Positions 6,851-51,483 of a DNA stretch of 64,000 nucleotides are shown here, piece by piece; position 1 is the first letter of the stretch; every line of letters starts with the position of its first letter. The position numbers and the translations under genes are program-made. The notes below the pieces were generated by a model. It did no database searches and was not told where the DNA came from. It saw nothing but the letters and a program-made list of their open reading frames with translations. Source of the stretch: [Clostridium] celerecrescens 18A (lineage in GTDB: Bacteria > Bacillota > Clostridia > Lachnospirales > Lachnospiraceae). The stretch is taken from the NCBI RefSeq assembly GCF_002797975.1, contig NZ_PGET01000001.1:1240001-1304000 (forward strand), given 5' to 3'.

Positions 6851-6857
6851 GCAAAAG

Positions 6858-6976: not shown

Positions 6977-7681
6977 ATGAACGATCGAATGGAAAAGGCT
7001 GAATCAGTCTTAGAGCTGCTTCCCGGTTTTCAATATCTCTATAAGGGGGAAGTGAATACAGAAACTGTGGATTATCTGATAAAAAAGGGCTGGGCATTGG
7101 AGGCAGAAGACTGCGGATCTGTTCAACTGGCCTCTTTGGCAGGAATGGACAGGAACGACATTTATTTCCCGGCTCTTTATAAAGAGCCGGCAGCCATAAA
7201 GGCAGTCATTGGGACATGCAGGTTCGTTGCCTCCAGTTTAAAAGAGATAGAACTTATCAATGAAGCAGCAGCCGGATATCTGGCTCCGGGTCATCTGGAA
7301 GTGATAGGAATTGCCGTGATTGCAGAAGCTTATGACAATGGAGAAATGCCTGGCTTCCGTGTGGAAGAATTATCCCAATTAGCGGCGGAAGCCAGAAAAT
7401 TGCGTTTCATATCCATACGCGGCTGTTTTATCCAGGGCAATTCGAAAGGCCTGTCAGGAGAAAAGCTTGGAAGATATTTGAGAGACTGTTATGAAACAGC
7501 CAAACTGGTTACCACGACCATTCCCTGTGGCATGTCTTATATAAACATCGGCAATTCCATGGAACCTGCTGTTCAAACCATGAAATCAGGCCGGGAAGCT
7601 CAGGAAACGCTGCAAACTGCAGCAAAGATCATGGTCAACCAGAATCAGACCGCTTTTTATGCGAAATTGCTGCTGCAATAA
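6977..7681 (+). CDS. Orphan alanine-racemase-N-like (PLP-barrel fold) protein
   Basis: 234 residues; I recognise it only weakly. The middle (CRFVASSLKEIELINEAA, LEVIGIAVIAEAY, PGFRVEELSQLAAEARKL, then ISIRGCFIQGN) follows the order of strands in the alanine-racemase N-terminal barrel (control of the neighbouring residues, DTGM-like strand, pGf/E-l, irGif.h). The lysine-bearing N-terminal motif (AvKANAYG) is not evident and the C-terminal racemase domain is absent, so catalysis is doubtful. It stands alone between two terminators. Fold assignment is tentative. Confidence 0.5.
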   Translation: MNDRMEKAESVLELLPGFQYLYKGEVNTETVDYLIKKGWALEAEDCGSVQLASLAGMDRNDIYFPALYKEPAAIKAVIGTCRFVASSLKEIELINEAAAGYLAPGHLEVIGIAVIAEAYDNGEMPGFRVEELSQLAAEARKLRFISIRGCFIQGNSKGLSGEKLGRYLRDCYETAKLVTTTIPCGMSYINIGNSMEPAVQTMKSGREAQETLQTAAKIMVNQNQTAFYAKLLLQ

Positions 7682-24940: not shown

Positions 24941-25344
24941 GTAATATACGCGTAATGTACAAGCGCTTTTAGAACTTTTCAGGAATTTTATTAATATCTG
25001 CAAGTAGTACTTCCGTCGTTTTATGGGTGTACGACCCTTTGGTTAAGTAACAGAATGGCCTGCAATGAGCGATAGTTATTCTTAAATATCAATTTAACGA
25101 AGTAATATTACGCCCCCCCCTCACATATAATTGTATATCCGTATATTCTTCCAAATCTATAAGTTATGCCGGTTATATGAGTATTAAAGCGCCTTCTGCT
25201 ATAGATTCGATTTATATCAAGAATTAGAAGTGTTCCAAATTAATTTATCAGAACACTCGTTGTAAAGCCTGAATTTCAGCACTAGGTGTGAATGTAATTG
25301 GACCAACATTAAAATTGATTATTAATATAGGAGATGTTGTAGAA
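24941..25344. other. Gene-free AT-rich stretch
   Basis: About 400 bases after the rplT terminator with no supported gene. It has a C8 run near 25110-25120 and a small hairpin around GGGTGTACGACCC (25026-25038). No RNA gene recognised. Confidence 0.5.
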
Positions 25345-26217
25345 ATGAACCATATAGTAAATGAGAATTATAGAATTTATTTAATAACCATGGATAAAAG
25401 TGATCAATTTTGGAAGGTTATGGATAATGGTGCTAGAGAAATGGCTTCTATGTTAGGTGTTACATATGAATGGGACGCCCCCTTAACGAGAGATGTAAAT
25501 AAACAAATTGAAATATTTAATAATGCCGTAGTAGCGGGAGCAGATGCAATAATGTTAGCGGCGAGTGATCCTTTAAAGATTTCAAGAGCAGTTGAAGAAG
25601 CGAAAGCAAAGGGTGTAAAAATCATTTATGTTGATGCACCAGCGTTTGAAGAAGCAGTCATAACCTTAGCTACAGATAATTATACAGCTGGTAAGATAGC
25701 TGGAGAAAATATGTTTTACGAATTAGAGGAGATTGGTGTCACATATGGTTCAATAGGAATCATTGGGATAACTCCTGAAAACAGAACGACTGTAAATCGG
25801 GAATTGGGATTTCGTGATTATTTTAAATCGTTTGTCAGATATCAAATATTAGAAACAATATACACGAATGGTGACCCAGAGTTAGCAAAACAAGCAACGG
25901 AAAAATATATAAGAGACAATCCCAATCTAGTTGGTGTTTTTTCAACGAATGAAGGAACTACATTAGGGCTGGGATATGCTTTGAGAGAAAATGATATAAA
26001 TATTATCGGTATTGGATTTGATATCACAGAGGTAATTCAGGAAATGATAAGAGATAATACTTTAAAAGCTATATTGGTACAAAATCCATTTACAATGGGC
26101 TATTTGGGTATGGCTGAGGCAGTTGCTGCATTAAGGGGATTTGATACAGGTCCACAATTTATTAATACTGGAGTAACTGTAGTTAATATATATACACCAA
26201 GTCGAATATTATCATAA
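25345..26217 (+). CDS. Sugar-binding-protein-like (Peripla_BP_4) protein without signal peptide
   Basis: About 290 residues. It carries the RbsB-type substrate-binding fold: YRIYLITMDKSDQFWKVMDNGAREMA, FNNAVVAGADAIMLAASDP, KGVKIIYVDAP, ATDNYTAGKIAGENM, VGVFSTNEGTTLGLGYAL, GIGFDITEVIQEMIRDN and VQNPFTMGYLG. ABC-system binding proteins start with a signal or lipoprotein peptide; none is present here, whether the start is ATG 25345 (GGAG at 25330) or GTG 25288. No transporter genes adjoin it. It may be a cytoplasmic sensor, or a truncated transferred copy. AT-rich, unlike the flanking rplT. Confidence 0.8.
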   Translation: MNHIVNENYRIYLITMDKSDQFWKVMDNGAREMASMLGVTYEWDAPLTRDVNKQIEIFNNAVVAGADAIMLAASDPLKISRAVEEAKAKGVKIIYVDAPAFEEAVITLATDNYTAGKIAGENMFYELEEIGVTYGSIGIIGITPENRTTVNRELGFRDYFKSFVRYQILETIYTNGDPELAKQATEKYIRDNPNLVGVFSTNEGTTLGLGYALRENDINIIGIGFDITEVIQEMIRDNTLKAILVQNPFTMGYLGMAEAVAALRGFDTGPQFINTGVTVVNIYTPSRILS

Positions 26218-31911: not shown

Positions 31912-32277
31912 TGAAATAAATGTAGAGTAGGAGAAATGCTCCAGGAGGCTGAGGGTTTCTGATTTGGAATGTGGCGCCGCAACAGGCGTTTGTATGCCAT
32001 CTTTTAGGACGGTTATGTACACTTAGTAATTTGGTTGCCTACAGGTAAGAAAATAATATAAAATTATACGCTATATTAGCCCCGGGATTTTGGCCTCGGG
32101 GCTATTGTGTTGGGAAATTGTTTCGATCCTAAGTTCGGTCGGTGTTAAGTACAGATATCCAGGCACATCGGGATACATACTTTCTGCTATACTTGGAAAG
32201 GAAAAAGCGCAGACAAAGATGCCTGCGCTTTTTCGTATTATAATCACATGTGCCTTTTATTTCCAGGCAATAAAAAA
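31912..32277. other. Gene-free stretch with two hairpins upstream of tRNA genes
   Basis: Contains a GC-rich hairpin TAGCCCCGGG/CCTCGGGGCTA (32077-32104) and a strong hairpin GAAAAAGCGCAG/CTGCGCTTTTTC (32201-32234); the latter can end the minus-strand tRNA transcript. No gene supported. Confidence 0.55.
32201..32234 (-). terminator. Terminator of the minus-strand tRNA unit
   Basis: Twelve-base perfect arms 32201-32212 and 32223-32234; the stem itself ends in AAAAAG/CTTTTT. Confidence 0.75.
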
Positions 32278-32350
32278 CTCCCCGAGTAGGACTTGAACCT
32301 ACGACCCAACGGTTAACAGCCGTTTGCTCTACCGACTGAGCTATCGAGGA
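32278..32350 (-). tRNA. tRNA-Asn(GTT)
   Basis: 73 bases: acceptor stem TCCTCGA/TCGGGGA with discriminator G, anticodon loop CTGTTAACC and T-arm GTTCAAGTC are all present. CCA is not encoded. Second gene of the minus-strand tRNA pair. Confidence 0.93.
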
Positions 32351-32414
32351 ATACATGACTTATTATACCCGAAAAGTGAAATATGTCAATAGGGAAAATA
32401 TAAATATTAAAAAG

Positions 32415-32498
32415 TGCGGGAGATGGGACTTGAACCCACACGAGCATACACCCACAAGATCCTTAGTCTTGCCTGTCTGCCAATTCCAGCACTCCCGC
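32415..32498 (-). tRNA. tRNA-Leu(AAG)
   Basis: 84 bases with a long variable arm. Acceptor GCGGGAG/CTCCCGC, anticodon stem-loop CAAGA-CTAAGGA-TCTTG giving anticodon AAG, T-arm GGTTCAAGTCC. Identical to 32793-32876, in opposite orientation. A TTGACA-like/TAAGAT promoter lies upstream on the minus strand (32511-32539). Confidence 0.9.
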
Positions 32499-32594
32499 AC
32501 AACGAACATTATCTTAGCACTTAAAAGTAAAATTGTCAATATTTTTTGAAAAATATATACAAAAAAAATATTTGAAAAATTTGGAGAAATGTTG

Positions 32595-32623
32595 TTGACA
32601 TATAAGAGCTTGTATACTATAAT
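32595..32623 (+). promoter_or_regulatory. Consensus promoter of tRNA-Leu genes
   Basis: TTGACA (32595-32600), 17-base spacer, TATAAT (32618-32623). Confidence 0.8.
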
Positions 32624-32656
32624 AACTATTGTTGTTACGACAGATAACAACGAAAT

Positions 32657-32740
32657 GCAGAAGTGGCGGAATTGGCAGACGCGCACGGTTCAGGTCCGTG
32701 TGGTAGCAATACCTTGAGGGTTCAAGTCCCTTCTTCTGCA
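32657..32740 (+). tRNA. tRNA-Leu(CAG)
   Basis: 84 bases: acceptor GCAGAAG/CTTCTGC, anticodon stem-loop CACGG-TTCAGGT-CCGTG giving anticodon CAG, variable arm and T-arm typical of leucine tRNAs. Identical to the copy at 51400-51483. Confidence 0.92.
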
Positions 32741-32792
32741 TGAAACTATGCAGATCGTCATAGCTGTGTGGTTTTCAATATTTATATGACAT

Positions 32793-32876
32793 GCGGGAGT
32801 GCTGGAATTGGCAGACAGGCAAGACTAAGGATCTTGTGGGTGTATGCTCGTGTGGGTTCAAGTCCCATCTCCCGCA
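32793..32876 (+). tRNA. tRNA-Leu(AAG), second copy
   Basis: Same 84-base sequence as 32415-32498 but on the plus strand; the two form a long inverted repeat around tRNA-Leu(CAG). Follows tRNA-Leu(CAG) by 52 bases, probably in one transcript. Confidence 0.9.
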
Positions 32877-32900
32877 TTATAATTTAAACCGGATTAGAAT

Positions 32901-37302: not shown

Positions 37303-40300
37303 ATGCAAACAATGAAACACCGTAAAAGCAGCAAAATAATCAGCATGCTCTTGGTGATGGTTTTGCTCTGTGCGATGTTCCCGATAAGGATATTTGCAGA
37401 GGAGACTGGGGAGGTTACGGTAAGCACTGCCAAAGACTTTATTCAGGCAGTTAATAGTAATAATACCTGGAAAATTACGCTTGCCGCGGATGTTGTTATA
37501 GAGTATGGTATGACAAATGCGCAGGGCAATTGGAACAGTAATTATCAAAGTGCGGCTCAGCCTGGTTTATCTGGACAGCCGCAAGGGATTTTGGTTGGAA
37601 ATAAAGCAAATGCCGGTGGTGACGGCAGCTTCGTAATCGATGGCCAGAATCAATATAAGATTATATTTAAGTGGCCCCATACGATTGTCGAGAATGGTAA
37701 TTTTTATTTTCCTAACGCAAGTAAGGTAAAGTCATTCACAATGAAAGATATCACATGGTACGGAAGTAGTGAGGTTGGCTGTTATTTTCCTGCCGGTAAT
37801 GTCGTGAATGACGTACAGATTACCTTTGATCATGTTACATACAAAGGACCGGGTATGGGTGATATTGCAATATATTCGGTTTATAAACCGCAGGTATTAT
37901 TTAGAGATTGTGACATTACAATGAGTTACCGCAATGGATCAGGAGGAAGCGGAGTTGATTCGGATGGATATGGAGGAAGTTTGCCGTCATCTGGCTCTGC
38001 ACCTTATGGAGCTTTGTGGCAGGATACCCACGCTTCTGAAACCATTGCTGCAAATTTTATTACATTTGAAGGAAATAATACCATTACCAAACAGGACTCT
38101 CCGGCAGACGGCGGGGGTGTTCTCGGTGATATTGATCCGATCTTCTATATTTACTGGTACGGGGACAGCTACGTGAAGGTGGCAGACGGCGCTTCTCTGA
38201 TCATTAAGGATGAGGCGGGAAAAACAAAGCAATCTACCTATACAACCGGTTTAATTGGTACCTATACATCCGCCTATTCCACTCCGTTTATCGTTGGAGA
38301 AAATGCTGTTTTTGAATATCACCATGTAGGCAGCGGAAATGGATTTATTACCGATTATTACAAGCTTGGCAGCCTTATAATTGGGGATCAGGCAAGTGTA
38401 GTCTTCGATATCAAAGCTGATAAAAAGTTTAATACAAATGATGTAAGCAATCTTCCTGCCTATTTTACGGCGGACTCAATTCGCGTCGGTGAAGGGGCAA
38501 AGTGGACATATGTTGTGGATTATGCTGGTTCAGCTGCCAATGCTAACAACTCGATGGTCAGTGCAAACACGATCAGCATTGCAGATAGTGCCGAGGTAAA
38601 CCTTATTGCCAAGAATAATTCGCAAGCAGAATCCCTGATTACCTTGCGGGACAGCAGCCCCAGCATTTCATTTACAAATCCTCAAAATGTTGTATTGTTC
38701 AATAGCAAGAGCGACACAAACTCTTATGTAATCAAGAGCTCCAGCAATGCAAGTTTGAACATAAAAACAAATGGGATTCGTTCTTGGGTGTCTTTACCTG
38801 AAAACAATGTGTCTATAACAGGGAATATCAATCCAGGAAATCAGGTGGCCCTTGAAAACAACTACGTAACCTCCCCGGATGCCCCTTATCAGTGGGTGTT
38901 AGATGGAGCACAATACTCAGCAACTCTAAAATCTGGTGCAAATGCTGAAATTATAAACGATTCTTCGGGTCATGGTGATGTTTTCAATCTGTCAGGTACT
39001 AATGCGTTAAAAAACATCAATGTATTGGAACTACGGGCAAAAGCTGCTTTGACAAGTGGCAGCGTTTTATACGAAATCTGGGATGGTACATCTGTCAGCA
39101 GCTTTCCAGCCGGAATTGGGGGACCATTCCCTGTTTCAGGTCCGAAGGACAATGATTACAACTATTCAATTGCAAAAGAAATACAATTAGGAAGTGGAGA
39201 AGATCATTATATCTTTGACATGGAATATACACTGAATCAGTTACAGGTTAACGCAGCAATTTCCGATTGGGCACTGACAATGAGCGATACTGATAATGGT
39301 TTGGGAATACATACGCTCTATTATGCGGTTGATAACCGAGGGGCGATTCCGGGAACTGATCCAGATGGGATCCCAGACTATCAGCAGCCTTATTCAACGG
39401 TAAAAGTGTTCTATAGTCTTTATGACGGCACCGTTGGGGATCCTCAGCTTGTCGGTGATCGAGAGGATATGGAAATAGCTACTTTATATGAAAAAGTCGG
39501 TTCGGCAGGCATTTATACTGCACCAAAAAATCAGACGTATAATGCAGAAAACTACGTGTTTGACGATATTTTGACCAATGACGAATGGGAGAATAAAGGC
39601 GGCCTTTCGTCCTATCAGTTGGATGGCAGGAATATTTCCTTTACCTATCCTGAGGACATAGAGGAAGATCCCATACCAGATGGGAAATTAGTACTTGTTT
39701 ATTCGCTGGATATAAAAGATATAAACGATATTAACAGCAATGGCAATGAAGATGAGCCGAATGGTATTCCCGATTGGCAGGAAACTGAAACCGAAGAAGG
39801 CAACGAAACCGGTGGAGGAATTGAGAACGGTGGAGGAATTGAGAACGGCGGAGGAAACGAAACCGGCGGAGGAAACGAAACCGGTGGAGGAAGTGAAACT
39901 GGTGGAGGAAACGAAACCGGTGGGGAAAACGAAACTGGTGGAGGAAGTGAAACCGGAGGCGGTAGCGAAACTGGTGGAGGAAACGAAACTGGTGGAGGAA
40001 GTGAAACCGGAGGCGGTAGCGAAACTGGTGGAGGAAATGAAACTGGTGGAGGAAGTGAAACCGGAGGCGGAGGCGAAACTGGTGGAGGAAGCGAAACCGG
40101 CGGAGGAAACGAAACTGGTGGAGGAAGCGAAACCGGCGGAGGAAGCGAAACCGGCGGAGGAAACGAAACTGGTGGAGGAAACGAAACCGGTGGAGGAAGT
40201 GAAACCGGTGGAGAAAACGAAACTGGAGGCGGAAGCGAAACCGGCGGAGGAAACGAAACTGGAGGCGGAAGCGAAACCGGCGGAGAAAACGAAACTGGGG

Positions 40301-41208
40301 GCGGAAGTGAAACCGGCGGAGGAAGCGAAAACGGAGGCGGAAGCGAAACTGGTGGAGGAAATGAAACTGGCGGAGGAAGCGAAACCGGCGGAGGAAACGA
40401 AACTAGTGGAGGAAGCGAAACCGGTGGAGGAAACGAAACTGGTGGAGGAAGTGAAACCGGTGGAGGAAGCGAAACCGGCGGAGGAAACGAAACTGGTGGA
40501 GGAAGTGAAACCGGTGGAGAAAACGAAACTGGAGGCGGAAGCGAAACCGGCGGAGGAAACGAAACTGGTGGAGGAAGTGAAACCGGTGGAGAAAACGAAA
40601 CTGGAGGCGGAAGCGAAACCGGCGGAGGAAACGAAACTGGGGGCGGAAGTGAAACCGGAGGCGGAAACGAAACCGGAGGCGGAAGCGAAACCGGAGGCGG
40701 AAGCGAAACCGGCGGAGGAAACGAAACTGGTGGAGGAAGTGAAACCGGCGGAGGAAACGAAACTGGCGGCGGAAGTGAATCCGGAGGAGGAAACGAAACC
40801 GGAGATGGAAGCGAAACTGGCGGAGGAAGCGAAACTGGAGGCGGAAGCGAAAACGGAAGTGGAAGCGGTGGCAATTCCAGCGGAACTGGTGGAAGTAACG
40901 GAGGAAGTAGTAGCGGGAGTGGAAGCAGCAGTTCCCGTGGACCTGGAGGAAGCAGTAACAATACCGGTGGACCTGGTGTTATATCTGGAAACAGTGTCAA
41001 CGATGAGATCATCGAGGATATTGTTGTAGATGACCAGGATATACCGAAAGGAATCAGTGAAATAAACGAAGTAGACGAAATAGGTAAAATAGACGGTTTA
41101 CCGAAAACAGGCGACACCAGTGTAACCTGGAACGTTTATTTATTGTTATCCTTTGCATCATTCTCCGCGTTTGTTTTATGCCATTTAGGCAGTAAAAAAA
41201 TAAAATAA
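37303..41208 (+). CDS. LPXTG-anchored surface protein with parallel-beta N-domain and long NETGGGSETGGG-type repeat
   Basis: 1301 residues. A signal peptide (MQTMKHRKSSKIISMLLVMV...IFA) is followed by a region from about 25 to 800 with a pectate-lyase-like adhesive pattern (STAKDFIQAVNSNNTWKITLAADVVIEY, and F.D..I/V repeats such as ITFDHVTYKG). Residues about 830-1185 are a (S/N)-E-T-G-G-(G/E) six-residue repeat, then a Gly/Ser stalk. At the C-terminus LPKTGD, a hydrophobic helix and KKIK form a sortase anchor. It should be covalently attached to peptidoglycan and reach out from the wall. AGGAGG precedes ATG 37303. No sortase gene is in the window. Confidence 0.88.
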   Translation: MQTMKHRKSSKIISMLLVMVLLCAMFPIRIFAEETGEVTVSTAKDFIQAVNSNNTWKITLAADVVIEYGMTNAQGNWNSNYQSAAQPGLSGQPQGILVGNKANAGGDGSFVIDGQNQYKIIFKWPHTIVENGNFYFPNASKVKSFTMKDITWYGSSEVGCYFPAGNVVNDVQITFDHVTYKGPGMGDIAIYSVYKPQVLFRDCDITMSYRNGSGGSGVDSDGYGGSLPSSGSAPYGALWQDTHASETIAANFITFEGNNTITKQDSPADGGGVLGDIDPIFYIYWYGDSYVKVADGASLIIKDEAGKTKQSTYTTGLIGTYTSAYSTPFIVGENAVFEYHHVGSGNGFITDYYKLGSLIIGDQASVVFDIKADKKFNTNDVSNLPAYFTADSIRVGEGAKWTYVVDYAGSAANANNSMVSANTISIADSAEVNLIAKNNSQAESLITLRDSSPSISFTNPQNVVLFNSKSDTNSYVIKSSSNASLNIKTNGIRSWVSLPENNVSITGNINPGNQVALENNYVTSPDAPYQWVLDGAQYSATLKSGANAEIINDSSGHGDVFNLSGTNALKNINVLELRAKAALTSGSVLYEIWDGTSVSSFPAGIGGPFPVSGPKDNDYNYSIAKEIQLGSGEDHYIFDMEYTLNQLQVNAAISDWALTMSDTDNGLGIHTLYYAVDNRGAIPGTDPDGIPDYQQPYSTVKVFYSLYDGTVGDPQLVGDREDMEIATLYEKVGSAGIYTAPKNQTYNAENYVFDDILTNDEWENKGGLSSYQLDGRNISFTYPEDIEEDPIPDGKLVLVYSLDIKDINDINSNGNEDEPNGIPDWQETETEEGNETGGGIENGGGIENGGGNETGGGNETGGGSETGGGNETGGENETGGGSETGGGSETGGGNETGGGSETGGGSETGGGNETGGGSETGGGGETGGGSETGGGNETGGGSETGGGSETGGGNETGGGNETGGGSETGGENETGGGSETGGGNETGGGSETGGENETGGGSETGGGSENGGGSETGGGNETGGGSETGGGNETSGGSETGGGNETGGGSETGGGSETGGGNETGGGSETGGENETGGGSETGGGNETGGGSETGGENETGGGSETGGGNETGGGSETGGGNETGGGSETGGGSETGGGNETGGGSETGGGNETGGGSESGGGNETGDGSETGGGSETGGGSENGSGSGGNSSGTGGSNGGSSSGSGSSSSRGPGGSSNNTGGPGVISGNSVNDEIIEDIVVDDQDIPKGISEINEVDEIGKIDGLPKTGDTSVTWNVYLLLSFASFSAFVLCHLGSKKIK
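39795..40863 (+). repeat. 18-bp tandem repeat inside the LPXTG gene
   Basis: About 59 units of GGTGGAGGAAGCGAAACC-type sequence, each coding six residues. Units vary by synonymous changes (GGT/GGC/GGA) and by Ser/Asn and Thr/Asn swaps. Because the unit is divisible by three, copy-number change keeps the frame. Confidence 0.9.
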
Positions 41209-41484: not shown

Positions 41485-42711
41485 ATGGGGTATAAAGTAC
41501 TGGTAGCGGATGATGAGTATATCATTCGCCGGGGGATTATCAGTTTTTTAAGACAATACAGTGATTTCGAACTGGCAGCAGAAGCGGAGGATGGAGAAAT
41601 GGCACTTGAACTGGCAAAAGACATTTCACCGGATGTTTATTTTGTTGATATTAATATGCCATTTCTAAATGGTCTTCAATTCATTAAAAGCTTAAGGGAA
41701 ATAAACCCCAGGGCAGTGGTGGTGATCATAACTGGATATGACAGGTTTGAATATGCCAGAGAAGCTCTGAAGCTGGGGGTCTTTGAATACCTGCTGAAGC
41801 CTCTGATGGAAGGTCCATTTGATGAGATGATGCAGCGGGTGCGGGAAAGACTGCAGAGAGAGGAAAGTGAAGATAAGTATCTAATCTGGGCGAAGAGTAT
41901 GCTTGCACAAAATCGTACCTACCTAGCCTCTAACTTTTGGCAGAGAGCACTGGAAGGGCATTACACAAAGGAAGAAATCAGGGAACGCTCCCAGTACTTA
42001 AATCTTTTGCTTCCAGAACCATTTGCAATTACGGTGGTTTCCCTGGAATATCATAAAATGGAAGATGTAAAAAGCACCTGGAATGAAGATCTTCTGTTTT
42101 TTGTTGCTGAAAATATTGCAAATGAAATGTTTCATGGGCTAGTGAACCCAAACAGCTGCCAGGACAGGCACGGTAATCTGGTGGTGATCTCAAAAACTGT
42201 GGCACCGGAAGCTGCAGAGGAGCAGACGGAGACCTATTGCCATATGCTGGAGTCGCAATTACCGGTGCGCTGTATAGTCATGCAGGTGACCGGAGATGAT
42301 TATGGAGCTCTGGCTGAAACCTATGAAACGGCTGTCAGCCGGTTAAAGGAGCTGGAAACCGGTTCCTCTGTGATTAAGGATGTGAAGCTTTATATTGAGG
42401 ATAACTATTCGCGGGAAGACTTTTCCTTTCAGGATGCGGCAGGCCATGTAAATCTGTCTGTTCCCCATTTAAGCAGGATGTTCCGCAGAGAGATGGGAGT
42501 AACCTTTATCGATTACTTAACCAGCGTCAGGATCCGTAAGGCAATCGAGCTTTTACATAGCGGTGAATTAAAGATTTATGAAATCGCGGAACTGACCGGA
42601 TACGCAAACCAGCATTATTTCAGTAATGTATTTAAAAAGAATCTGGGGGTCAGCCCTGCTGAATACCGAAGATTGATTAAAAATGATAATCAAACCTCAT
42701 CCATGCAATGA
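41485..42711 (+). CDS. YesN-type response regulator (receiver + AraC helix-turn-helix)
   Basis: 408 residues. The receiver domain spans 1-120 with DDEY at the N-terminus, the phosphorylated Asp in VYFVDINMP, and Lys in LLKPL. A linker follows, then two AraC helix-turn-helix units at 310-400 (LSVPHLSRMFRREMGVTF, IAELTGYANQHYFSNVFKKNLGVSPAEYRR). It is the partner of the YesM-type kinase at 47615 and the likely activator of the transporter between them. CAGGAGGAG precedes ATG 41485. Confidence 0.93.
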   Translation: MGYKVLVADDEYIIRRGIISFLRQYSDFELAAEAEDGEMALELAKDISPDVYFVDINMPFLNGLQFIKSLREINPRAVVVIITGYDRFEYAREALKLGVFEYLLKPLMEGPFDEMMQRVRERLQREESEDKYLIWAKSMLAQNRTYLASNFWQRALEGHYTKEEIRERSQYLNLLLPEPFAITVVSLEYHKMEDVKSTWNEDLLFFVAENIANEMFHGLVNPNSCQDRHGNLVVISKTVAPEAAEEQTETYCHMLESQLPVRCIVMQVTGDDYGALAETYETAVSRLKELETGSSVIKDVKLYIEDNYSREDFSFQDAAGHVNLSVPHLSRMFRREMGVTFIDYLTSVRIRKAIELLHSGELKIYEIAELTGYANQHYFSNVFKKNLGVSPAEYRRLIKNDNQTSSMQ

Positions 42712-42805
42712 TTTTATACCTTTTACTCAAATTATTGCAAAGACTTTCTCTCCTCCTTCCGGCATAATAAACGTATCGTTAAAACCAAAAAGGAGGATCA
42801 TCAAA

Positions 42806-43864
42806 ATGAAAAAAAGATTTTTAAGCGTGTTGCTGTGCGCATCCATGGCAGCGGTTTCCTTAGCCGCATGCAGCAGCGGAGCCAGCAGTTCGACCGCAAC
42901 CACAGCCGCTCCCCAGACTACATCGGCACAGGCTGAGACCACAGCAAAAGCAGAAGAGACCACGGCTAAAACTACCGAGGCTTCAGGAGAAAAGCTGGTA
43001 GTCGGCTTTGCCCAGATCGGTCAGGAGTCCGGATGGCGTGACGCAGAAACCCTTTCCATTCAGACATACGCGTCTGAGAATGGGGATAAGGTAGAGCTTC
43101 TTTTTGCAGATGCGCAGCAGAAGCAGGAAAATCAAATTAAAGCGATCAAGAACTTCATCGAACAGGGCGTAGATGTTATTGGCCTTGCACCGGTCGTTGA
43201 AACCGGATGGGATCAGGTATTTGCTGAGGCAAAAGAAGCAGGGATTCCGATTATCCTTCTGGACCGCAGAGCGGATGTCAGCGAAGACTTATATGCAACC
43301 TTTATCGGCTCTGATTTCATTGAAGAAGGCAAGATGGCTGCAAAGGAAATGGCAAAGCTGCTCGGAGAAAATGGTAAAATTGTTGAGCTGGAAGGAACGG
43401 TAGGTGCTTCCGCAGCAACGGACCGCAAAACCGGGTTTGATGATGAGATCAAAGCAAGCTATCCAGGTATTGAGATCGTGGCTTCCCAGACCGGTGATTT
43501 TACCAGAGCCCAGGGAAAAGAAGTTATGGAGTCTTTCCTTAAATCTAATAAGGATATCAAGGGTGTTTATGCGCACAACGACGATATGGCCCTTGGAGCA
43601 ATCGAGGCAATCAAAGAGGCAGGATTAAAACCGGGTGAAGACATTAAGATCGTTTCCATTGACGGTGTCCGCGGAATCTTTGAAGCAATGGCAGCCGGAG
43701 AGGCAAATTGTACCGTAGAATGTAATCCACTGCTTGGGCCGCTTTTATTTGAAACAGCAGCAAAGCTGAAGGCAGGCCAGTCTGTTGATAAATGGGTGAA
43801 ATCGGTAGACGGCGTATTTACTGCTGATATGGCAGCTAAGGTACTTCCGGACCGCAAATATTAA
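42806..43864 (+). CDS. Sugar ABC transporter substrate-binding lipoprotein (galactofuranose-type, YtfQ-like)
   Basis: 352 residues. Signal peptide with lipobox SLAAC, an Ala/Thr-rich linker, then a periplasmic-binding fold. VVGFAQIGQESGWRDAETLSI, FIEQGVDVIGLAPVVETGWDQVF, ILLDRRADV, YAHNDDMALGAIEAIKEAG and NPLLGPLLFE match the YtfQ group, which binds galactofuranose. ATG 42806 follows AGGAGG at nine bases; the longer frame from 42683 overlaps the regulator. The hairpin 43871-43910 lies before the ATPase gene. Confidence 0.93.
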   Translation: MKKRFLSVLLCASMAAVSLAACSSGASSSTATTAAPQTTSAQAETTAKAEETTAKTTEASGEKLVVGFAQIGQESGWRDAETLSIQTYASENGDKVELLFADAQQKQENQIKAIKNFIEQGVDVIGLAPVVETGWDQVFAEAKEAGIPIILLDRRADVSEDLYATFIGSDFIEEGKMAAKEMAKLLGENGKIVELEGTVGASAATDRKTGFDDEIKASYPGIEIVASQTGDFTRAQGKEVMESFLKSNKDIKGVYAHNDDMALGAIEAIKEAGLKPGEDIKIVSIDGVRGIFEAMAAGEANCTVECNPLLGPLLFETAAKLKAGQSVDKWVKSVDGVFTADMAAKVLPDRKY

Positions 43865-43870
43865 ACCGCG

Positions 43871-43914
43871 GGGTTGTTGCAAAAGTATATCATTATTTTT
43901 GCAGCAACCCTTTT
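43871..43914 (+). terminator. Intra-operon hairpin after the binding-protein gene
   Basis: Arms GGGTTGTTGCAAAA (43871-43884) and TTTTGCAGCAACCC (43897-43910, one mismatch), then TTTT. A leaky terminator here would let the binding protein be made in excess over the permeases, a common arrangement in ABC import operons. Confidence 0.7.
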
Positions 43915-43961
43915 CATATCAGAGGAGATGCTTCTTAATTGAAAAGCGAGGAGGAAACACC

Positions 43962-45488
43962 ATGAGTGCTGGGAATCAGCTTTTGACAGCGAGAAATATA
44001 TCCAAGGCATTTGGGAAAGCGGTTATTGCTTTGGCTGATGTGCAGTTTGATTTGAATCGGGGGGAAATACATGCCTTGTTAGGGGAAAACGGTGCGGGAA
44101 AATCTACGCTCATTAAAGTGCTGACCGGAGTGGAAACCAAGGACCGGGGAGTCATTGAGTTAGACGGAAGACAGATCAATCCGAGATCCACACAGGAAGC
44201 GCAAAACGAAGGAATTTCAACGGTATACCAGGAAGTTAATCTTTGTCCCAATCTTTCCGTGGCGGAAAATATTTATATTGGGCGGGAACCGAGAAACCGG
44301 TTTGGAACCATTAATTGGAAAAAAATCAATGCCGACGCCAGTGAACTGCTGGATAAATTTGATTTACATATAAATGTTACAAAAAATCTGGATCATTATT
44401 CTGTAGCGATCCAGCAGATGGTGGCCATTGCAAGGGCCAGCGATATTGATGCCAGGGTTCTGATTTTGGATGAACCCACCAGCAGCCTTTCCTCTGCTGA
44501 GGTAGATAAGCTGTTTCAAATTATGAGAAAGCTTCGTAAAGAGGGAATGGGGATTGTCTTTGTCACACATTTTCTGGATCAGGTTTATGAAGTCACTGAC
44601 AGAATCACCGTACTTCGAAACGGAAAATATGTGGGAACCTATCTGACGAAAGAGCTGCCAAGAGTAGAGTTGGTGGGTAAAATGATAGGCAAGGATTATG
44701 CAGGGCTTAAGGACATGAATGCTAAACGGCCGGAGGAAGCAGAGGGACGGGAAAAGGAGACTTTTATAGAGCTGGCCAATGTCAGCAGTGCCGGAACGGT
44801 TAAGGGGTTTGAGCTTAAAGTGAAAATGGGAGAAGTTCTGGGCTTTTCCGGGCTCTTAGGTTCCGGGCGTTCGGAGACAGCCAAGATTTTATTTGGAATA
44901 GACCCCATCAGCGAAGGAGAAGTAAAGGTGAAACATGAGACGGCTCACCTCCATTCTCCCTTAGACGCAATCCGGAACGGAATCGCTTTTTGCCCGGAAA
45001 ACCGGAAGACAGAGGGAATCATCGGAGAGCTTTCCATCTGGGAAAATATCATACTTGCCCTTCAGGTGAAACGGGGGATCTTCCATAAGATTTCAAGGAA
45101 AGAAGCGGAAGAGCTTTCGAAGGAGTATATTGAAAAACTTCAGATCAAAACACCGGGCACTGAGCAATTAATTAAGAATCTGAGCGGAGGAAACCAGCAA
45201 AAAGTAATTCTTGCCAGATGGCTTGCTACGGATCCGGAGTTTCTGATGCTTGATGAACCAACCAGGGGAATTGATATCGGAACAAAGGCGGAAATACAGA
45301 AAATTGTCATGGATCTTGCAGGAAGAGGGATGGCGGTACTCTTCATATCATCGGAGATTGATGAGATGCTCCGCTGCTGCACCAGGATGATCGTGCTCCG
45401 GGATATGAAGCAGGTAGGAGAGCTAAACGGAAAAGAAATATCGGAAGAAGCAATTATGCATATTATGGCTGGAGGTGAAGCGTCATGA
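43962..45488 (+). CDS. Sugar ABC transporter ATP-binding protein (two ATPase domains, YtfR-like)
   Basis: About 508 residues with two ABC domains, as in RbsA/MglA/YtfR. Domain 1 has Walker A GENGAGKST, signature VAIQQMV region and Walker B LILDEPTSSL. Domain 2 has the degenerate Walker A GLLGSGRSETAK, signature LSGGNQQKV and LMLDEPTRGID. ATG 43962 follows GAGGAGGAA. It overlaps the first permease gene by four bases (ATGA). Confidence 0.95.
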   Translation: MSAGNQLLTARNISKAFGKAVIALADVQFDLNRGEIHALLGENGAGKSTLIKVLTGVETKDRGVIELDGRQINPRSTQEAQNEGISTVYQEVNLCPNLSVAENIYIGREPRNRFGTINWKKINADASELLDKFDLHINVTKNLDHYSVAIQQMVAIARASDIDARVLILDEPTSSLSSAEVDKLFQIMRKLRKEGMGIVFVTHFLDQVYEVTDRITVLRNGKYVGTYLTKELPRVELVGKMIGKDYAGLKDMNAKRPEEAEGREKETFIELANVSSAGTVKGFELKVKMGEVLGFSGLLGSGRSETAKILFGIDPISEGEVKVKHETAHLHSPLDAIRNGIAFCPENRKTEGIIGELSIWENIILALQVKRGIFHKISRKEAEELSKEYIEKLQIKTPGTEQLIKNLSGGNQQKVILARWLATDPEFLMLDEPTRGIDIGTKAEIQKIVMDLAGRGMAVLFISSEIDEMLRCCTRMIVLRDMKQVGELNGKEISEEAIMHIMAGGEAS

Positions 45489-46519
45489 GAGAAATCTGGA
45501 ATCGTTTGTCAGGAAAACAGTATTTCCGCCCCCTCATCATTTTTATGATAATTCTGCTCTTTAACGGTATTGTAAGCAAGGGGGGATTTTTCACACTATC
45601 CATCGTGGATGGGCACTTATACGGACGTATAATTGACATTGTAAGAAATGGAAGCAAGCTTATGATACTGGCTGGCGGCATGACTATGATACTGGCAACG
45701 GGCGGAACTGATATTTCTGTAGGTTCTATCATGGCAATCAGCGGAGCCATTGCCTGCAGCATTGTAAACGGGAATATTTTTCCGTCATTCCATGGGAATG
45801 TTGCCGCGGCGATTATATTCGCGATCCTTGCAGGAACGGTCAGCGGCATCTGGAATGGATTTTTAGTGGCTAAAATAAAGATCCAGCCAATTGTAGCCAC
45901 CATGATTTTAATGGTGGCGGGCAGGGGTATCGCACAGCTGATTACCAGGGGAAAGATCGTTACGATTACTTCGGAAGCCTATTATTTTATCAACGGAGGT
46001 TATATTCTCGGTATTCCCTTCCCCTTGTTTATTGTCGTTTTTCTAGTGGGTTTTTTGGTTCTGTTTACAGGAAGAACGGCATTTGGCCTGTTTTTAGAAT
46101 CCGTAGGCTGCAATCCGACTGCCTCAAAGTATGTGGGCATTAAGGTTGACCGGATGCTGCTGGCAATCTATACACTTTCCGGAGCCTTTGCTGCGGTGGC
46201 AGGTTTGATTGAAAGTGCCGGGATTAAGGGTGCGGACTGCAATAATGCAGGACTGGGGATTGAAATGGATGCCATTCTTGCCGTAGCAATTGGAGGAACC
46301 AACTTAATGGGCGGGCGTTTTTCCATTCCAGCCAGCGTCATAGGAGCATTGATCGTGCAGAGCATCACAACAACAGTACTGGCCCTGGGAGTTCCGGCGG
46401 CTTATATCCGTGTGTTAAAGGCATTGTTGATTATAATCATCTGTCTGTCCCAGTCAAAACAGTTTAAGGATCTGGTCATCAAGCGCAAAATGATAAACAG
46501 AAAGGTGGTTGGTAACTGA
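45485..46519 (+). CDS. Sugar ABC transporter permease 1 (YtfT-like)
   Basis: 344 residues with about ten membrane helices. MILATGGTDISVGSIMAISG is the typical first motif of the ribose-type permease family, and GIEMDAILAVAIGGTNLMGG is the EAA-like cytoplasmic loop that contacts the ATPase. One base of overlap with the second permease. Confidence 0.93.
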   Translation: MREIWNRLSGKQYFRPLIIFMIILLFNGIVSKGGFFTLSIVDGHLYGRIIDIVRNGSKLMILAGGMTMILATGGTDISVGSIMAISGAIACSIVNGNIFPSFHGNVAAAIIFAILAGTVSGIWNGFLVAKIKIQPIVATMILMVAGRGIAQLITRGKIVTITSEAYYFINGGYILGIPFPLFIVVFLVGFLVLFTGRTAFGLFLESVGCNPTASKYVGIKVDRMLLAIYTLSGAFAAVAGLIESAGIKGADCNNAGLGIEMDAILAVAIGGTNLMGGRFSIPASVIGALIVQSITTTVLALGVPAAYIRVLKALLIIIICLSQSKQFKDLVIKRKMINRKVVGN

Positions 46520-47532
46520 TGGAGCAGGCGGGAAAAAGAAAAAGAGTTCAGATCAATAATATTTCGCTGGTTATCACCGTTGTGCTGTTTGTCCTGATGT
46601 TTCTGTTTGGTTCAGTAAAGTATAATAACTTTTTATCTTTATCAACCTTTTTAAATCTTTTTAATGACAACGCATACTTAATGATTGCGGCAATCGGAGC
46701 TACCTTTGTGCTGATAAGCGGAGGAATCGATATCTCCATCGCCTCTACCATAGCATTTACCGGCGTAGGATCTGCTTACCTGCTGGAGCGGGGAGTCCCG
46801 GCATTTCTGGTAATCCTACTGATGCTTCTTGCAGGAATCATCGTAGGCTGTACCCAAGGGGCCCTGATTCATTATTTTAAGCTTCAGCCGTTCATTGTGA
46901 CTTTGGCAGGCCAGTTTTTAATGCGGGGACTTTGCGTTGTAATCAGTGAACGCTCCATTCCCATCAGTGATCCGTTTTTTAAGACCATGGCACTTGGGAA
47001 GGTGGCAGTTCATCTGGGAGAAGCGAAAGCGTGGAACGGGAAAATTTATTACTATGTATTTATTCTTTTGATTGTGTTTGCGGCTGCGGTCTATACCCTG
47101 AGATATACAAAGTTTGGCAGGTGTTTATATGCACTGGGAGGAGGAGAAACGTCTGCTAGCCTCATGGGATTAAATGTTGCAAGAACGAAAATTGCGGCAT
47201 ATGGAATCAGCAGCTTTTGTGCCGCTCTCGGAGGAATCGTGTTCAGTTTTTACACTCTGGCTGGATTCGGGCTCCAAAATCTGGGTCTGGAACTGGATGC
47301 ACTTTCTTCCGCTGTGATCGGCGGCACCCTGCTGACCGGAGGCGTAGGTACTGTGGCGGGTACGGCAGTCGGAGTCATGATAGAGGGAATTATCCAGACG
47401 ATCGTTACCTATCAGAATTTAAATACCTGGTGGACGAAAGTTACCATTGCGGCGCTTCTGTGTTTCTTTATCGTAATACAGAGAATCATCGCGATCCGCG
47501 CAGAAAAATCAAAGGGGAAGAACGAATATTAA
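46519..47532 (+). CDS. Sugar ABC transporter permease 2 (YjfF-like)
   Basis: 337 residues with the same fold as its neighbour: FVLISGGIDISIASTIAFTG and LELDALSSAVIGGTLLTGG. Two different permeases, one YtfT- and one YjfF-like, are the composition of the galactofuranose importer of E. coli, supporting that assignment over ribose. Confidence 0.92.
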   Translation: MEQAGKRKRVQINNISLVITVVLFVLMFLFGSVKYNNFLSLSTFLNLFNDNAYLMIAAIGATFVLISGGIDISIASTIAFTGVGSAYLLERGVPAFLVILLMLLAGIIVGCTQGALIHYFKLQPFIVTLAGQFLMRGLCVVISERSIPISDPFFKTMALGKVAVHLGEAKAWNGKIYYYVFILLIVFAAAVYTLRYTKFGRCLYALGGGETSASLMGLNVARTKIAAYGISSFCAALGGIVFSFYTLAGFGLQNLGLELDALSSAVIGGTLLTGGVGTVAGTAVGVMIEGIIQTIVTYQNLNTWWTKVTIAALLCFFIVIQRIIAIRAEKSKGKNEY

Positions 47533-47614
47533 AGCATAAAGCAGTTGTAAGAGTCTGTTAACTTCGGTATACTGATGAAGCAGGGGATATGAAATGAAAA
47601 TAGGAGTGAGAGCA

Positions 47615-49405
47615 ATGAAATATTGGACGAAAAGATTCATGGATATGAAAATTCGTGATAAAATGATCAATTCTCATATTTTTATTGCGCTCATTCCTTT
47701 TTGCTTTGTTGGATTATTGGGGATTATCAGCTCGACCAGAGAGGCGGAGCGCAATGTGACCCAGCATACATCTTTGCTGGTAGGGCAGGTGCAGCATACA
47801 ACGGATATCTACATAAGCAGTATTGAAAAGACTGCAAATATGCTGATCAGGATTATTGAGCCAATGCATCTTAATAAGATCCCATCTGCTGAGGACAGCC
47901 GCTGGGAAGCGTACGAAACAGCCCTGAAAAACAGCTTTGAGACAGTGGCGGAAACACATGATGAAATTGCGGGCATCTTTTTTGCCACGGAGCATGATAT
48001 GTATGTGGGAACCGGGATGTCCAGAATCTCCCGGGACCCGTTTGTCAAAGAAGTCTGGTATGAAAAAGCAGCGGCATCTCCAGGTGAAATGCAGATCATC
48101 AGCAATGTTACCGGAAGGAATATTGTTACGGAGGCCGCCTACAGCATTGATGATGTATTTTCAGTTATGAAAGCTGTTATTGACCCGGAGACAGGGGAGA
48201 GAGTAGGCGTACTGCTGTTTGATGTAAAGCATGAAATTATTTCATCTGCCATTCAGGATGCCAACATCGGTGAAAATGGATTTGTATTCGTCCTGGATGA
48301 ACAGAATCATTTAGTATATGCACCAACCAATAAAATCGTCTACCGCATCCGCCCGGAATGGCTTTGGAATGAAGAAGAACCTGTAACTGCGGTTACCAAT
48401 GGGGAAAAGTATCAGATCAGTTATCAGAAATCCGCCTATACGGGCTGGAAGACTGTCAGCGTCTCATCTTACCGTGAAATCATGGGCGGAATCAATACCA
48501 TGCTGATCATGTTTGGCTGGGTTTTGGTTTTAACAATTCTCACGGTATTTATTGTGGCGGTAAAAATTTCAGAGACGGTCACAAAACCCATAGTCAGGCT
48601 CCGCAACCTGATGAAGGAGACGGAAAAAGGCAACTTATCCGTTCGGTTTGAAGGTGATTATCTGGATGAGGTCAGTGAGCTTGGCCGCCGGTTCAATCAG
48701 ATGCTTGAGCGAATACAAGAATTGATGGAAGAGGTTTATAAAGAACAGGAAAATAAACGGAAAGCACAGCTTAAGGCAGTTCAGGAACAGTTTAAGCCGC
48801 ATTTCTTATACAATACTTTGGACACCATAGGCTGGATGGCCAGAGAGCATTCCGCTTATGACATTGTTCATCTTGTGGATGCTCTTACCAATGTTTTTCG
48901 TATCAGCTTAAGCAAGGGCAAAGACTATATTACCATTGAAGAAGAAATCCGATATATTTCCAATTATCTCTACATACAGAAAATCCGTTACGGGCCTAAG
49001 GTTCAGTATGAAATTCAGGCGGAGGAAGACTGTATGAAGGTGGTTCTTCCCAAAATGATCCTTCAGCCGTTGGTGGAAAACTCCATTTACCATGGGGTTA
49101 AGATGAAGAATGGAGACGGGCATCTAAAGATCACTGGACGGGTGGAAGATGATTGGGTGAGCCTGGAGGTATGGGATGACGGAAGGGGTATGGAAGAAGA
49201 AAAGGTTTGGGAATTATCCAGATTATTAAATGAACCGGGAGAAGCCGGCAAAAACAGAAGCTTTGGTTTGTTTTATATTAAGGAGCGGCTTCGCATCCGG
49301 TACGGAGATCAGTTCCAGGTATTGGTGGAAAGCAAAGAGGGGCAGGGGACGCGTATTGTTATACGAATTCCGAAAGAAGTTCAGAATGATCTTGAAAAAG
49401 GATAA
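47615..49405 (+). CDS. YesM-type sensor histidine kinase
   Basis: About 596 residues. Two membrane helices bracket an extracellular Cache-like domain (about 30-290). A HAMP linker follows (VTKPIVRLRNLMKETEKGNLSVRFEGDYLDEV), then the His_kinase domain with its His in FKPHFLYNTLDTIGWMA, and an ATPase domain (LQPLVENSIYHGV; DDGRGME). Partner of the YesN regulator at 41485. ATG 47615 has AGGAG eight bases upstream. Only one base separates its stop from the next ATG. Confidence 0.93.
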   Translation: MKYWTKRFMDMKIRDKMINSHIFIALIPFCFVGLLGIISSTREAERNVTQHTSLLVGQVQHTTDIYISSIEKTANMLIRIIEPMHLNKIPSAEDSRWEAYETALKNSFETVAETHDEIAGIFFATEHDMYVGTGMSRISRDPFVKEVWYEKAAASPGEMQIISNVTGRNIVTEAAYSIDDVFSVMKAVIDPETGERVGVLLFDVKHEIISSAIQDANIGENGFVFVLDEQNHLVYAPTNKIVYRIRPEWLWNEEEPVTAVTNGEKYQISYQKSAYTGWKTVSVSSYREIMGGINTMLIMFGWVLVLTILTVFIVAVKISETVTKPIVRLRNLMKETEKGNLSVRFEGDYLDEVSELGRRFNQMLERIQELMEEVYKEQENKRKAQLKAVQEQFKPHFLYNTLDTIGWMAREHSAYDIVHLVDALTNVFRISLSKGKDYITIEEEIRYISNYLYIQKIRYGPKVQYEIQAEEDCMKVVLPKMILQPLVENSIYHGVKMKNGDGHLKITGRVEDDWVSLEVWDDGRGMEEEKVWELSRLLNEPGEAGKNRSFGLFYIKERLRIRYGDQFQVLVESKEGQGTRIVIRIPKEVQNDLEKG

Positions 49406-49406
49406 A

Positions 49407-51278
49407 ATGGAAAAAAGAACGAAATTACTAATGGTATTACTGGTATCGGTATTCATCTTTTTGGGATACCGAATATATAACGGGGCAATTACACAGACGG
49501 TTTATAAAAGTGATGTGGAATATGTGATCGGAGTTTCTCAGGCAAACATGCGGGAAGCATGGCGGGTTGCTCTGATTAATGAGATCCAGGAGGAGGCGGG
49601 AAAGTATCCCAATATCAGGATCGTAACTGCAGACGCCACCTCCAGCGTAGAAAAGCAGGAAAAGGATGTTGACAGGCTTCTGGATTTTGGCATAGACCTT
49701 TTGATCATCTCTCCCTGCGATTCCAGCCGTCTCACAAAGAAAGTCAGAGATGTATATCAGGAGGGAGTTCCTGTAATTGTTATGGACCGAAGCGTGGAAG
49801 GCTTTGATTATAACCTGTTTATCGGTCCGGATAATAATCTGATCGGGAAGCAGGGCGGAGAATGTGCGGCCCGGCTTCTTGAAAACGGGAAGGGAAAGAT
49901 CCTCGAGCTTCGTGCAACGGCTGGTTCCCTTCAGAGCGAGGAGCGAAGCGATGGGTTTGATTCTGTGATCAGGGACTATCCTGATATAGAAAAGACCGTC
50001 TGTGATCTAAAAAATGATATGAAGGATCCTGCCTATGATGCGGTTTTTGCCATGCAGGAGGAACTAAAAGGTGTTTCCCTGATATTTGCCAACAATGATT
50101 CGGTAGCCTTTGGAGCATACCAGGCACTAAAAGACAGGAATCTTGCTGAGACGATAAAAGTCATCGGATGCGACGGCTTTACAGGAGAAAACGAAGGAGT
50201 AGACCTGGTGAGAAAAGGAAAGCTTGCGGCAACGATTTCCTGCCCTACAGGTGGGAAAGAGGCAGTGCAATATGCCATTAATATTCTTCGGAAGGAAAGC
50301 GGTGTTCCCAAGCAGGTCATTTTAAGAAGTCATACGATCTATCCTCAGAATGCCGGTGAGTATCTGGCAGCTCTTGACAGAGAAAGTATCGACGATGGCA
50401 GGAGAATTACCGTAGGATATTCCCAGGTGGGGCAGGAGAGCCAGTGGAGGCTTGCCAACACCCGCTCGATCCAGGAAGCAGCCAGGGAGTTTCATATGGA
50501 ACTTCTTTTTGACAGCGCAGACCAGTCTCAAAAAAAGCAGATTGAAGCGATCCGAAGGTTCATTAAGGAGAAGGTAGATGTAATCGTAGTTTCTCCGGTG
50601 ATCGAGACAGGCTGGGATGAGGTACTGAAAGAGGCAAAGGAAGCCAATATTCCTGTAGTAATGTCCGACCGCAGAATCGAGGCGGGAGATGATTTAACAA
50701 CCACGTATATTGGCGCTGATTTTTTAGAGGAAGGGCGAAGAGCCATGCGCTGGCTAAAGGAACATGTAAAACCGGAGCATGGAATTGTTCATATTTTAGA
50801 GCTTCAGGGAAGCGAAGGCGCGACACCCACGGAAGAGAGAAAAAAAGGTTTCTTCGAAATATTAAAGGAGAATCCCCAGTACCAGATTATATATACGGAT
50901 TATGGTGATTTTACGTTCGAAGGAGGAAAACAGGTTGTCGAGGAATACATAAACAGTCACACCTGGGATGTGGATATTATCTATTCCCACAACGACGATA
51001 TGGCCCTTGGAGCGATTAAAGCATTGGAGGCACATGGATTGAAGCCGGGGAAGGATATAACAATTGTTTCCGTGGATGCGACGAAAGAAGCGTTTCAGGC
51101 AATGATAGACGGCAAGCTGAACTGTGCCGTGGAATGCAGTCCGCTTTTAGGTCCTCCGCTTATGAAGGCGATCCGGGATATGATTGCAGGAAAGGAAATG
51201 CCTCTTCGGATTATAACAGAAGAAAAGGTGTACGATCAGTCGGATGCGGAGGCCGTTATCAAAACCAGAGAATATTAA
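49407..51278 (+). CDS. Membrane-anchored receptor with two fused periplasmic-binding domains
   Basis: About 623 residues. The N-terminus has one hydrophobic segment (about 6-22) and no lipobox, so the protein is anchored by an uncleaved signal or TM helix. Domain A (about 35-315: VIGVSQANMREAWRVALINEI, IIGPDNNLIGKQGGE) and domain B (about 325-620: ITVGYSQVGQESQWRLANTRSI, VETGWDEV-like, SHNDDMALGAIKALEAHG, CSPLLGPP) are both of the Peripla_BP_4 type. Domain B closely follows the transporter's own binding protein. Its translation is nearly coupled to the kinase gene. I infer a sugar sensor that presents ligand to the YesM kinase. Confidence 0.9.
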   Translation: MEKRTKLLMVLLVSVFIFLGYRIYNGAITQTVYKSDVEYVIGVSQANMREAWRVALINEIQEEAGKYPNIRIVTADATSSVEKQEKDVDRLLDFGIDLLIISPCDSSRLTKKVRDVYQEGVPVIVMDRSVEGFDYNLFIGPDNNLIGKQGGECAARLLENGKGKILELRATAGSLQSEERSDGFDSVIRDYPDIEKTVCDLKNDMKDPAYDAVFAMQEELKGVSLIFANNDSVAFGAYQALKDRNLAETIKVIGCDGFTGENEGVDLVRKGKLAATISCPTGGKEAVQYAINILRKESGVPKQVILRSHTIYPQNAGEYLAALDRESIDDGRRITVGYSQVGQESQWRLANTRSIQEAAREFHMELLFDSADQSQKKQIEAIRRFIKEKVDVIVVSPVIETGWDEVLKEAKEANIPVVMSDRRIEAGDDLTTTYIGADFLEEGRRAMRWLKEHVKPEHGIVHILELQGSEGATPTEERKKGFFEILKENPQYQIIYTDYGDFTFEGGKQVVEEYINSHTWDVDIIYSHNDDMALGAIKALEAHGLKPGKDITIVSVDATKEAFQAMIDGKLNCAVECSPLLGPPLMKAIRDMIAGKEMPLRIITEEKVYDQSDAEAVIKTREY

Positions 51279-51399: not shown

Positions 51400-51483
51400 G
51401 CAGAAGTGGCGGAATTGGCAGACGCGCACGGTTCAGGTCCGTGTGGTAGCAATACCTTGAGGGTTCAAGTCCCTTCTTCTGCA
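51400..51483 (+). tRNA. tRNA-Leu(CAG), second copy
   Basis: 84 bases identical to 32657-32740, including acceptor, anticodon CAG and T-arm. Confidence 0.92.

Follow-up and report, generated by a model that had tools for sequence, protein, structure and literature searches.

The closest described relatives of the locus analyzed here depend on a solute-binding protein (SBP) for sensing; they are XylFII-LytS-YesN of Clostridium beijerinckii (PMC10384115) and CuaDSR of Ruminiclostridium cellulolyticum (PMC3656788), both with separate SBPs for uptake and for sensing. Our subject is a seven-gene locus at positions 41485–51278 of a 64-kb window, the whole stretch of DNA analyzed, which spans positions 1,240,001–1,304,000 of the single-contig, 5.27-Mb genome of [Clostridium] celerecrescens 18A. 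The genes, all on the plus strand, encode a YesN-type regulator, a transport SBP, a double ATPase, two permeases, a YesM-type histidine kinase and an anchored receptor. The locus has the genetic features of SBP-dependent three-component systems, in that kinase and regulator are encoded together with an SBP of their own, other than that of the transporter, in all 12 loci we read. It differs from the two described systems in its sensor, which in those is, as far as described, a single periplasmic-binding protein (PBP), whereas here it comprises two PBP domains and accompanies a YtfQ-type transporter. Further, CuaD is a predicted lipoprotein, whereas the receptor in the window has no lipobox. With a probability of roughly 0.75, we read the locus as a sugar-uptake operon under an SBP-dependent three-component system, with the tethered tandem PBP as its sensor.

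Other described systems share single elements with it. In BT1754 of Bacteroides thetaiotaomicron, a PBP that binds fructose, a kinase and an AraC-type output are joined in one protein (PMC3404733). This PBP is the best solved-structure match of one of our two receptor domains, but in our locus the tethered PBP is a protein of its own, the receptor has no kinase domain, the kinase has its own dCache domain, and PBP, kinase and AraC-type output are encoded by separate genes. BvgS and EvgS carry two flytrap domains in series within the kinase chain (PMC5573083; PMC4352136) and thus resemble our receptor in having serial flytraps that would feed a kinase; unlike theirs, the flytraps of our locus form a separate protein of the Peripla_BP_4 type. 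GlnPQ also has two SBP domains in series, which differ in specificity, yet these are fused to a transporter and used for import (PMC8025302). Two flytraps in series are also known from CdgH. Relative to the known three-component sensing with single SBPs, the variation here lies in two PBP domains of different branches in one separate tethered chain. Our searches of openly licensed papers, which may have overlooked such an account, turned up no separate Peripla_BP_4 tandem receptor paired with a kinase of its own. A first-pass annotation, made from the letters of the sequence, likewise named no described case of this fused architecture. The protein family itself is common in databases.

The tandem receptor and its linkage to a kinase

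A domain search of the 623-residue receptor returned two Peripla_BP_4 domains, which we call A and B from the N-terminus. They are encoded in a single open frame (49407–51278) rather than in two frameshifted genes, and the motifs GYSQVGQES, CSPLLGPP and SHNDDMALGA, highlighted by the first-pass annotation, are all present. The N-terminus has one hydrophobic helix without a lipobox. Structure prediction from a 67-row alignment (the query, 64 of 120 listed homologues and 2 locus proteins) gave a mean predicted local distance difference test score of 88 and a predicted template modelling score of 0.79; the model has an N-terminal helix followed by the secondary structure of two complete flytrap domains. 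From this helix, the sensing SBP is predicted to be tethered to the membrane. In a survey of 121 proteins including the query, 116 had a hydrophobic N-terminal stretch. Lack of a lipobox does not define the family, since a loose pattern for it is matched by 39 of the 121 and by the receptor of locus G351; related receptors may have one in place of the plain helix.

Among 8000 candidates scored, 632 receptor homologues had E ≤ 0.001, and the 120 listed ones are 605–648 residues long, with at least 94% query coverage. The receptor is 96% identical in Lacrimispora celerecrescens 152B, and a search of genome contigs with the single sequence returned one close strain only. At thresholds of 1e-120 or 1e-100, six of 25 genomes of the genus, our own included, contain the receptor; the more diverged receptor of G351, a genome of the family, was missed by the genome searches and reached via its SBP. 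A search with domain A alone found two proteins, P0131 (a partial sequence named Spirochaetia) and P0129, in which an A-type domain precedes the beginning of one of B type. The family extends over at least two bacterial families of one class, plus Spirochaetia from one named protein fragment. Another protein, P0153, is apparently out of frame past domain A.

The 12 loci comprise six in the genus as well as G179, G384, G099, G206, G351 and G794, the last from another family. In all of them the gene order is SBP, ATPase, permease, permease, kinase, receptor; the YesN gene lies 5' of the SBP gene in nine loci, while in the other three it separates the kinase gene from the receptor gene. The same six of 25 genus genomes have kinase, SBP orthologue and receptor. 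In the other 19, at the thresholds used, there is neither receptor nor kinase and the best SBP is 49–53% identical, although not every SBP and kinase candidate was scored in every genome. The block seems to have been gained and lost as one unit. All genes for which the ratio of nonsynonymous to synonymous substitutions (dN/dS) could be computed are under purifying selection, with a lower ratio in A than in B; the ATPase was excluded because of gaps in four of four comparisons, and the SBP in one of the four.

Some loci deviate from this pattern. In L. celerecrescens 152B and G254 (L009 8189–9999 and L056 9033–10843), receptor and transporter frames are whole but the kinase frame falls into two pieces of 210 and 400 residues, because of either a natural break or faulty assembly. 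The contig of G351 ends within the receptor, and its YesN is short, at 263 residues. In G794 about 1.4 kb separate permease and kinase, with no listed gene of 150 residues in between. In G099, the YesN and SBP genes have between them a gene for a methyl-accepting chemotaxis protein that carries a dCache domain (L049 17217–19223), so this locus may touch chemotaxis too. We dropped this protein as a second receptor partner, its BLASTP comparison with the kinase having shown no significant similarity (best E 1.0).

The arrangement has simpler counterparts in the same genome. Among 33 further regions with PBP genes, single anchored PBPs adjoin kinases at L059, L065 and L067. At L062, one YesM-type kinase is followed by two separate anchored PBPs (5072–6043 and 6059–7081) and then a transport SBP, which resembles the tandem receptor in unfused form; in the initial tree described below, this pair groups with neither A nor B. 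L070 was not counted as a kinase-linked region, as its kinase match was weak (19 bits) and absent from the later table.

Origin and pockets of the two domains

Domain B and the transport SBP are 46.0% identical over 287 residues (score 634; the highest of 200 shuffles reached 55), compared with 30.2% over 235 residues for domain A and the SBP (254, shuffle maximum 57) and 27.2% over 265 residues for A and B (211, shuffle maximum 52). The first-pass annotation had B following the SBP almost step by step, with A more distant; B is indeed far nearer to the SBP than A, but that wording overstates an identity of 46%.

In a tree of 89 domains, B (20 rows, support 100/99), the cognate SBPs (8 rows, 100/100) and A (20 rows, 100/100) form three separate clades. 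B is placed among YtfQ-type proteins, its sister group there being without resolution, and A lies outside this group. An initial tree had used 76 of 82 domains, dropping three of LacI type and three near-copies; for the larger tree 20 of the 82 were dropped (those six and 14 long-branch or distant ones), and 24 domains of 12 of the 64 database homologues and three from L125 were added. The separate clades argue against copying within loci and place A in a different PBP branch; we therefore rejected a recent copying of B from the transporter SBP. From these comparisons, B is an old paralogue of the SBP and the receptor joins two unlike PBPs rather than doubling the SBP, contrary to the earlier description of the receptor as a two-in-one copy of the transporter's binding protein. 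A deeper shared ancestor of B and the cognate SBPs was not rejected in an approximately unbiased test (p 0.215) of a group named after the first tree.

Both pockets look functional in the alignment, and that of A differs. Over the 67 receptors, domain A has W52, R53, D76, D127 and D231 without exception and R128 in 62 (Lys in 5), while domain B has R348, D421, R422, R478, D530, D531, D557, E576 and P579 in all and W347 in 64 (Phe in 3). The SBP and domain B retain the WR, DR, ND and E..P motifs of the GafA type. The start of the GafA-type GF.Q motif is GF in the aligned cognate SBPs, GY in 63 of 67 B domains and GV in 63 of 67 A domains; at the aromatic position, the remaining four rows have Phe in B and Ile in A. 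By analogy with the account in PMC10191376, this aromatic residue may form the pocket floor.

In the model, the fold of domain B resembles furanose-binding proteins (2vk2). Matches to B fill most of the list in a structure search with the whole receptor model; for domain A, the best match among solved structures, by both structure and sequence, is the fructose sensor domain of BT1754 (2x7x). A carboxylate ligand for A, considered because of Arg49 at the position of a ligand-side Glu, was dropped, as single-domain relatives of A have Thr, Gly, Ile or Ala there (by eye).

Importer, predicted operator and proposed signalling

The importer resembles GafABCD, the galactofuranose/L-arabinofuranose importer YtfQRT-YjfF, in sequence: its components are the best NCBIfam models for all four transport genes. 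All scores are below the curated equivalog cut-offs (bits/cut-off: YtfQ 358/510, YtfR 684/850, YtfT 300/535, YjfF 361.4/363, the last short by 1.6 bits), and the substrate may therefore differ from that of GafABCD. A further difference is that our locus is apparently regulated by YesM/YesN with a tandem receptor. The same genome has, at L071 (G000:C1:3914000-3925500), another YtfQ-type importer with a kinase and regulator of its own; within the stretch read, no sensor PBP adjoins them. Of the 25 genus genomes, 23 have SBPs that are 49–53% identical to that of the window, including the one of L071.

Upstream of the SBP gene lies a direct repeat of TTTTRTA and TTGYAAAGACTT with a 21-bp step, followed by a −10-like hexamer. 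We tabulated it in 11 of the 12 loci (L054 was left out). The distance from repeat to hexamer is 16 nt in ten of these 11 upstream regions and 17 in one, and the downstream half-site, which covers the −35 position, has 0–1 mismatches in all 11; the upstream half is looser. Over seven lineages and steps of 10–32 bp, half-site similarity peaks at 21 bp (6.0 of 10 positions identical), with the next value, 5.0, at 31 bp. The full pattern has 1–6 mismatches in the seven lineages, compared with 8–14 at 244 other transport and signalling genes and 6–13 in 1400 shuffles. A genome-wide search found one perfect site, at the window locus. No second regulon member could be named, since allowing up to three mismatches gave 32 matches against 15 in the reversed control. 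The repeat is likely the YesN operator, at the usual activating position.

We propose the following sequence of events. The lipoprotein SBP would, as in its family, supply the permease, and the tandem PBP protein, rather than feeding the permease, would report ligand occupancy to the Cache domain of the kinase. The kinase would phosphorylate YesN, as expected from its family, and YesN would bind the conserved 21-bp repeat at −35 and activate the genes of SBP, transporter, kinase and receptor, in positive feedback. Domain B most likely binds a furanose of the SBP's kind. Since its pocket is conserved but different, the membrane-proximal domain A, a sensor PBP of the BT1754 type, probably binds either a different sugar from B or another form of the same one; this is the least certain step. 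Three findings favor an anchored, sensor-type receptor for the adjacent kinase: the linkage in all 12 loci, the single-domain anchored PBPs next to kinases in the same genome, and the furanose-transporter context. This part of the original proposal stands, whereas the derivation from a copy of the transporter SBP does not.

Several points weigh against this reading. The structure prediction covers the receptor alone; we infer its contact with the kinase, and its ligand is a prediction. The kinase could also detect a ligand by itself, through its own dCache domain; sequence comparison of this domain with solved structures gave weak matches to chemoreceptor domains alone (best E 0.0037) and no hint of a ligand. 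The receptor is uncommon in genome samples, being found, at thresholds of 1e-120 or 1e-100, in 5 of 397 family and 2 of 398 phylum genomes when the best three candidates per genome were scored and our own genome was counted in both. None of the four transport genes reaches its equivalog cut-off. Distances of A and B correlate at 0.89 across 20 receptors (none of 1000 permutations as high), but this is not specific to fusion: across 8 loci the separate SBP shows correlations almost as strong, 0.87 with A and 0.85 with B, so the value reflects joint inheritance of the locus. The operator pattern was derived from the very sites later scored and its scores are partly circular; its weakest lineage, with 6 mismatches, was equalled by 1 of 1400 shuffles. 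Finally, a generic sigma-70 scan gave no plus-strand promoter at the repeat, which might be expected of an activator-dependent promoter.

As the pockets of A and B are conserved yet unlike, sensing of two ligands, which the first-pass annotation raised as a possible comparison of two sugars, is plausible. The receptor may be a two-input integrator, although we think this less likely than not; B might then read the imported furanose and A a second sugar (fructose-like or another pentose or hexose form), with the kinase responding to their combination (AND, OR or ratio). If so, signal logic would be computed outside the cell, in one tethered chain, ahead of the kinase. It seems rather unlikely to us that the receptor reads one sugar only, with a single sensing domain and the other (A being the likelier) serving as a spacer that has no ligand, or is always occupied, and docks on the kinase. 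The missing aromatic residue at the GF.Q position of A would suit such a spacer, but its five invariant pocket residues, its dN/dS, lower than that of B, and the fructose bound by its closest solved relative (PMC3404733) argue against it.

Since the receptor gene lies in the operon of the transporter, domain B falls into the YtfQ-type clade with transport SBPs and tandem substrate-binding domains exist in transport (GlnPQ, PMC8025302), the tandem protein might also be an accessory capture protein that hands sugar to the permease. This is improbable, however: the operon already has a dedicated SBP, and in the 12 loci the receptor gene follows the kinase or regulator, never the transporter genes. 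Further, B domains are more divergent than SBPs (mean distance over 8 loci 0.43 versus 0.22), and the analogous single anchored PBPs of the genome also adjoin kinases. We give even less credence to direct sensing of a small ligand by the dCache domain of the kinase, with the tandem PBP unrelated or redundant. The kinase's dCache_1 does score above the Pfam cut-off, and direct binding of amino acids, purines, amines, carboxylates and other ligands is described for dCache_1 domains from gut Clostridia (PMC12415202); yet no genus genome has just one of kinase and receptor at the thresholds used, and their linkage is maintained in another family.

If the tandem PBP is the sensor of this operon, its widespread family, with two differing, conserved pockets in one tethered chain, makes a simple system for the question of whether two sugars are integrated outside the cell. 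Further, the locus brings the predicted operator together with kinase, receptor and importer genes within 10 kb and would offer a handle for a furanose biosensor, provided that the ligand prediction holds.

Feature coordinates and neighboring genes

The order, strand and coordinates that the first-pass annotation gave for the seven genes are correct, as is the single base it noted between kinase and receptor genes (stop codon 49403–49405, ATG 49407). A ribosome-site-like AAGGA for the receptor lies inside the 3' end of the kinase gene. The kinase start chosen in the table has a ribosome site, and ATG 47594 upstream is a possible alternative; we take its KPHFLYNTLD to be the phospho-acceptor motif. 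The hairpin after the SBP gene is a probable partial terminator or stabilizer and may reduce expression of the downstream genes, in a region where terminator-like sites are not in excess (8 found, 9.2 expected).

Features of the locus, in window coordinates (TM, transmembrane segment)
Feature	Position	Strand	Remarks
YesN-type response regulator, 408 aa	41485–42711	+	Response_reg and AraC-type HTH_18 (Pfam); YesN homologue in 12/12 loci read
Predicted YesN operator, direct repeat with 21-bp step	42712–42746	+	TTTTATA (42712–42718) and TTGCAAAGACTT (42735–42746)
−10-like hexamer CATAAT	42763–42768	+	16 nt 3' of repeat
Lipoprotein SBP of the transporter, GafA/YtfQ-like	42806–43864	+	Peripla_BP_4; lipobox LAAC; ATG at 42806
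Hairpin between SBP and ATPase genes	43870–43911	+	18 pairs, then T-run
CUT2 double ATPase	43962–45488	+	ABC_tran x2; ATG at 43962; best model YtfR
Permease	45485–46519	+	BPD_transp_2; best model YtfT
Permease	46519–47532	+	BPD_transp_2; best model YjfF
YesM-type histidine kinase	47615–49405	+	TM, dCache_1, TM, HAMP, His_kinase, HATPase_c; ATG at 47615
Tandem PBP receptor, 623 aa	49407–51278	+	Peripla_BP_4 x2
Receptor N-terminal anchor region	49407–49514	+	helix at residues 2–30
Receptor segment after anchor	49515–50402	+	
Receptor C-terminal segment	50403–51278	+	

We ran Pfam on 17 proteins, comprising 16 from the flanks of the operon in the window and its relatives and one regulator at L062. 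Downstream of the operon, genes of the window code, among others, for a winged-helix regulator, a hydantoinase-type protein, a flavin adenine dinucleotide oxidoreductase and two proteins without a Pfam match. Among the 17, a glycosidase adjoins the receptor only in G099, where an 1886-residue protein with GH43 and PA14 domains is encoded immediately 3' of it (L049 1744–7404), a possible hint at arabinose- or xylose-containing glycans.

A tRNA-Leu gene lies directly 3' of the receptor in the window (51400–51483), and a cluster of four tRNA genes on both strands lies upstream of the locus (32277–32877). The window encodes a further Peripla_BP_4 protein of 309 residues with a GTG start (25288–26217) and a 1301-residue surface-type protein (37303–41208) with a long stretch of Gly-Glu-Thr-Gly/Ser repeats, whose C-terminal LPKTG is presumably a sortase-type motif. 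These repeats give rise to long open reading frames on the minus (39699–41117) and plus (39740–41029) strands that are unlikely to be genes.

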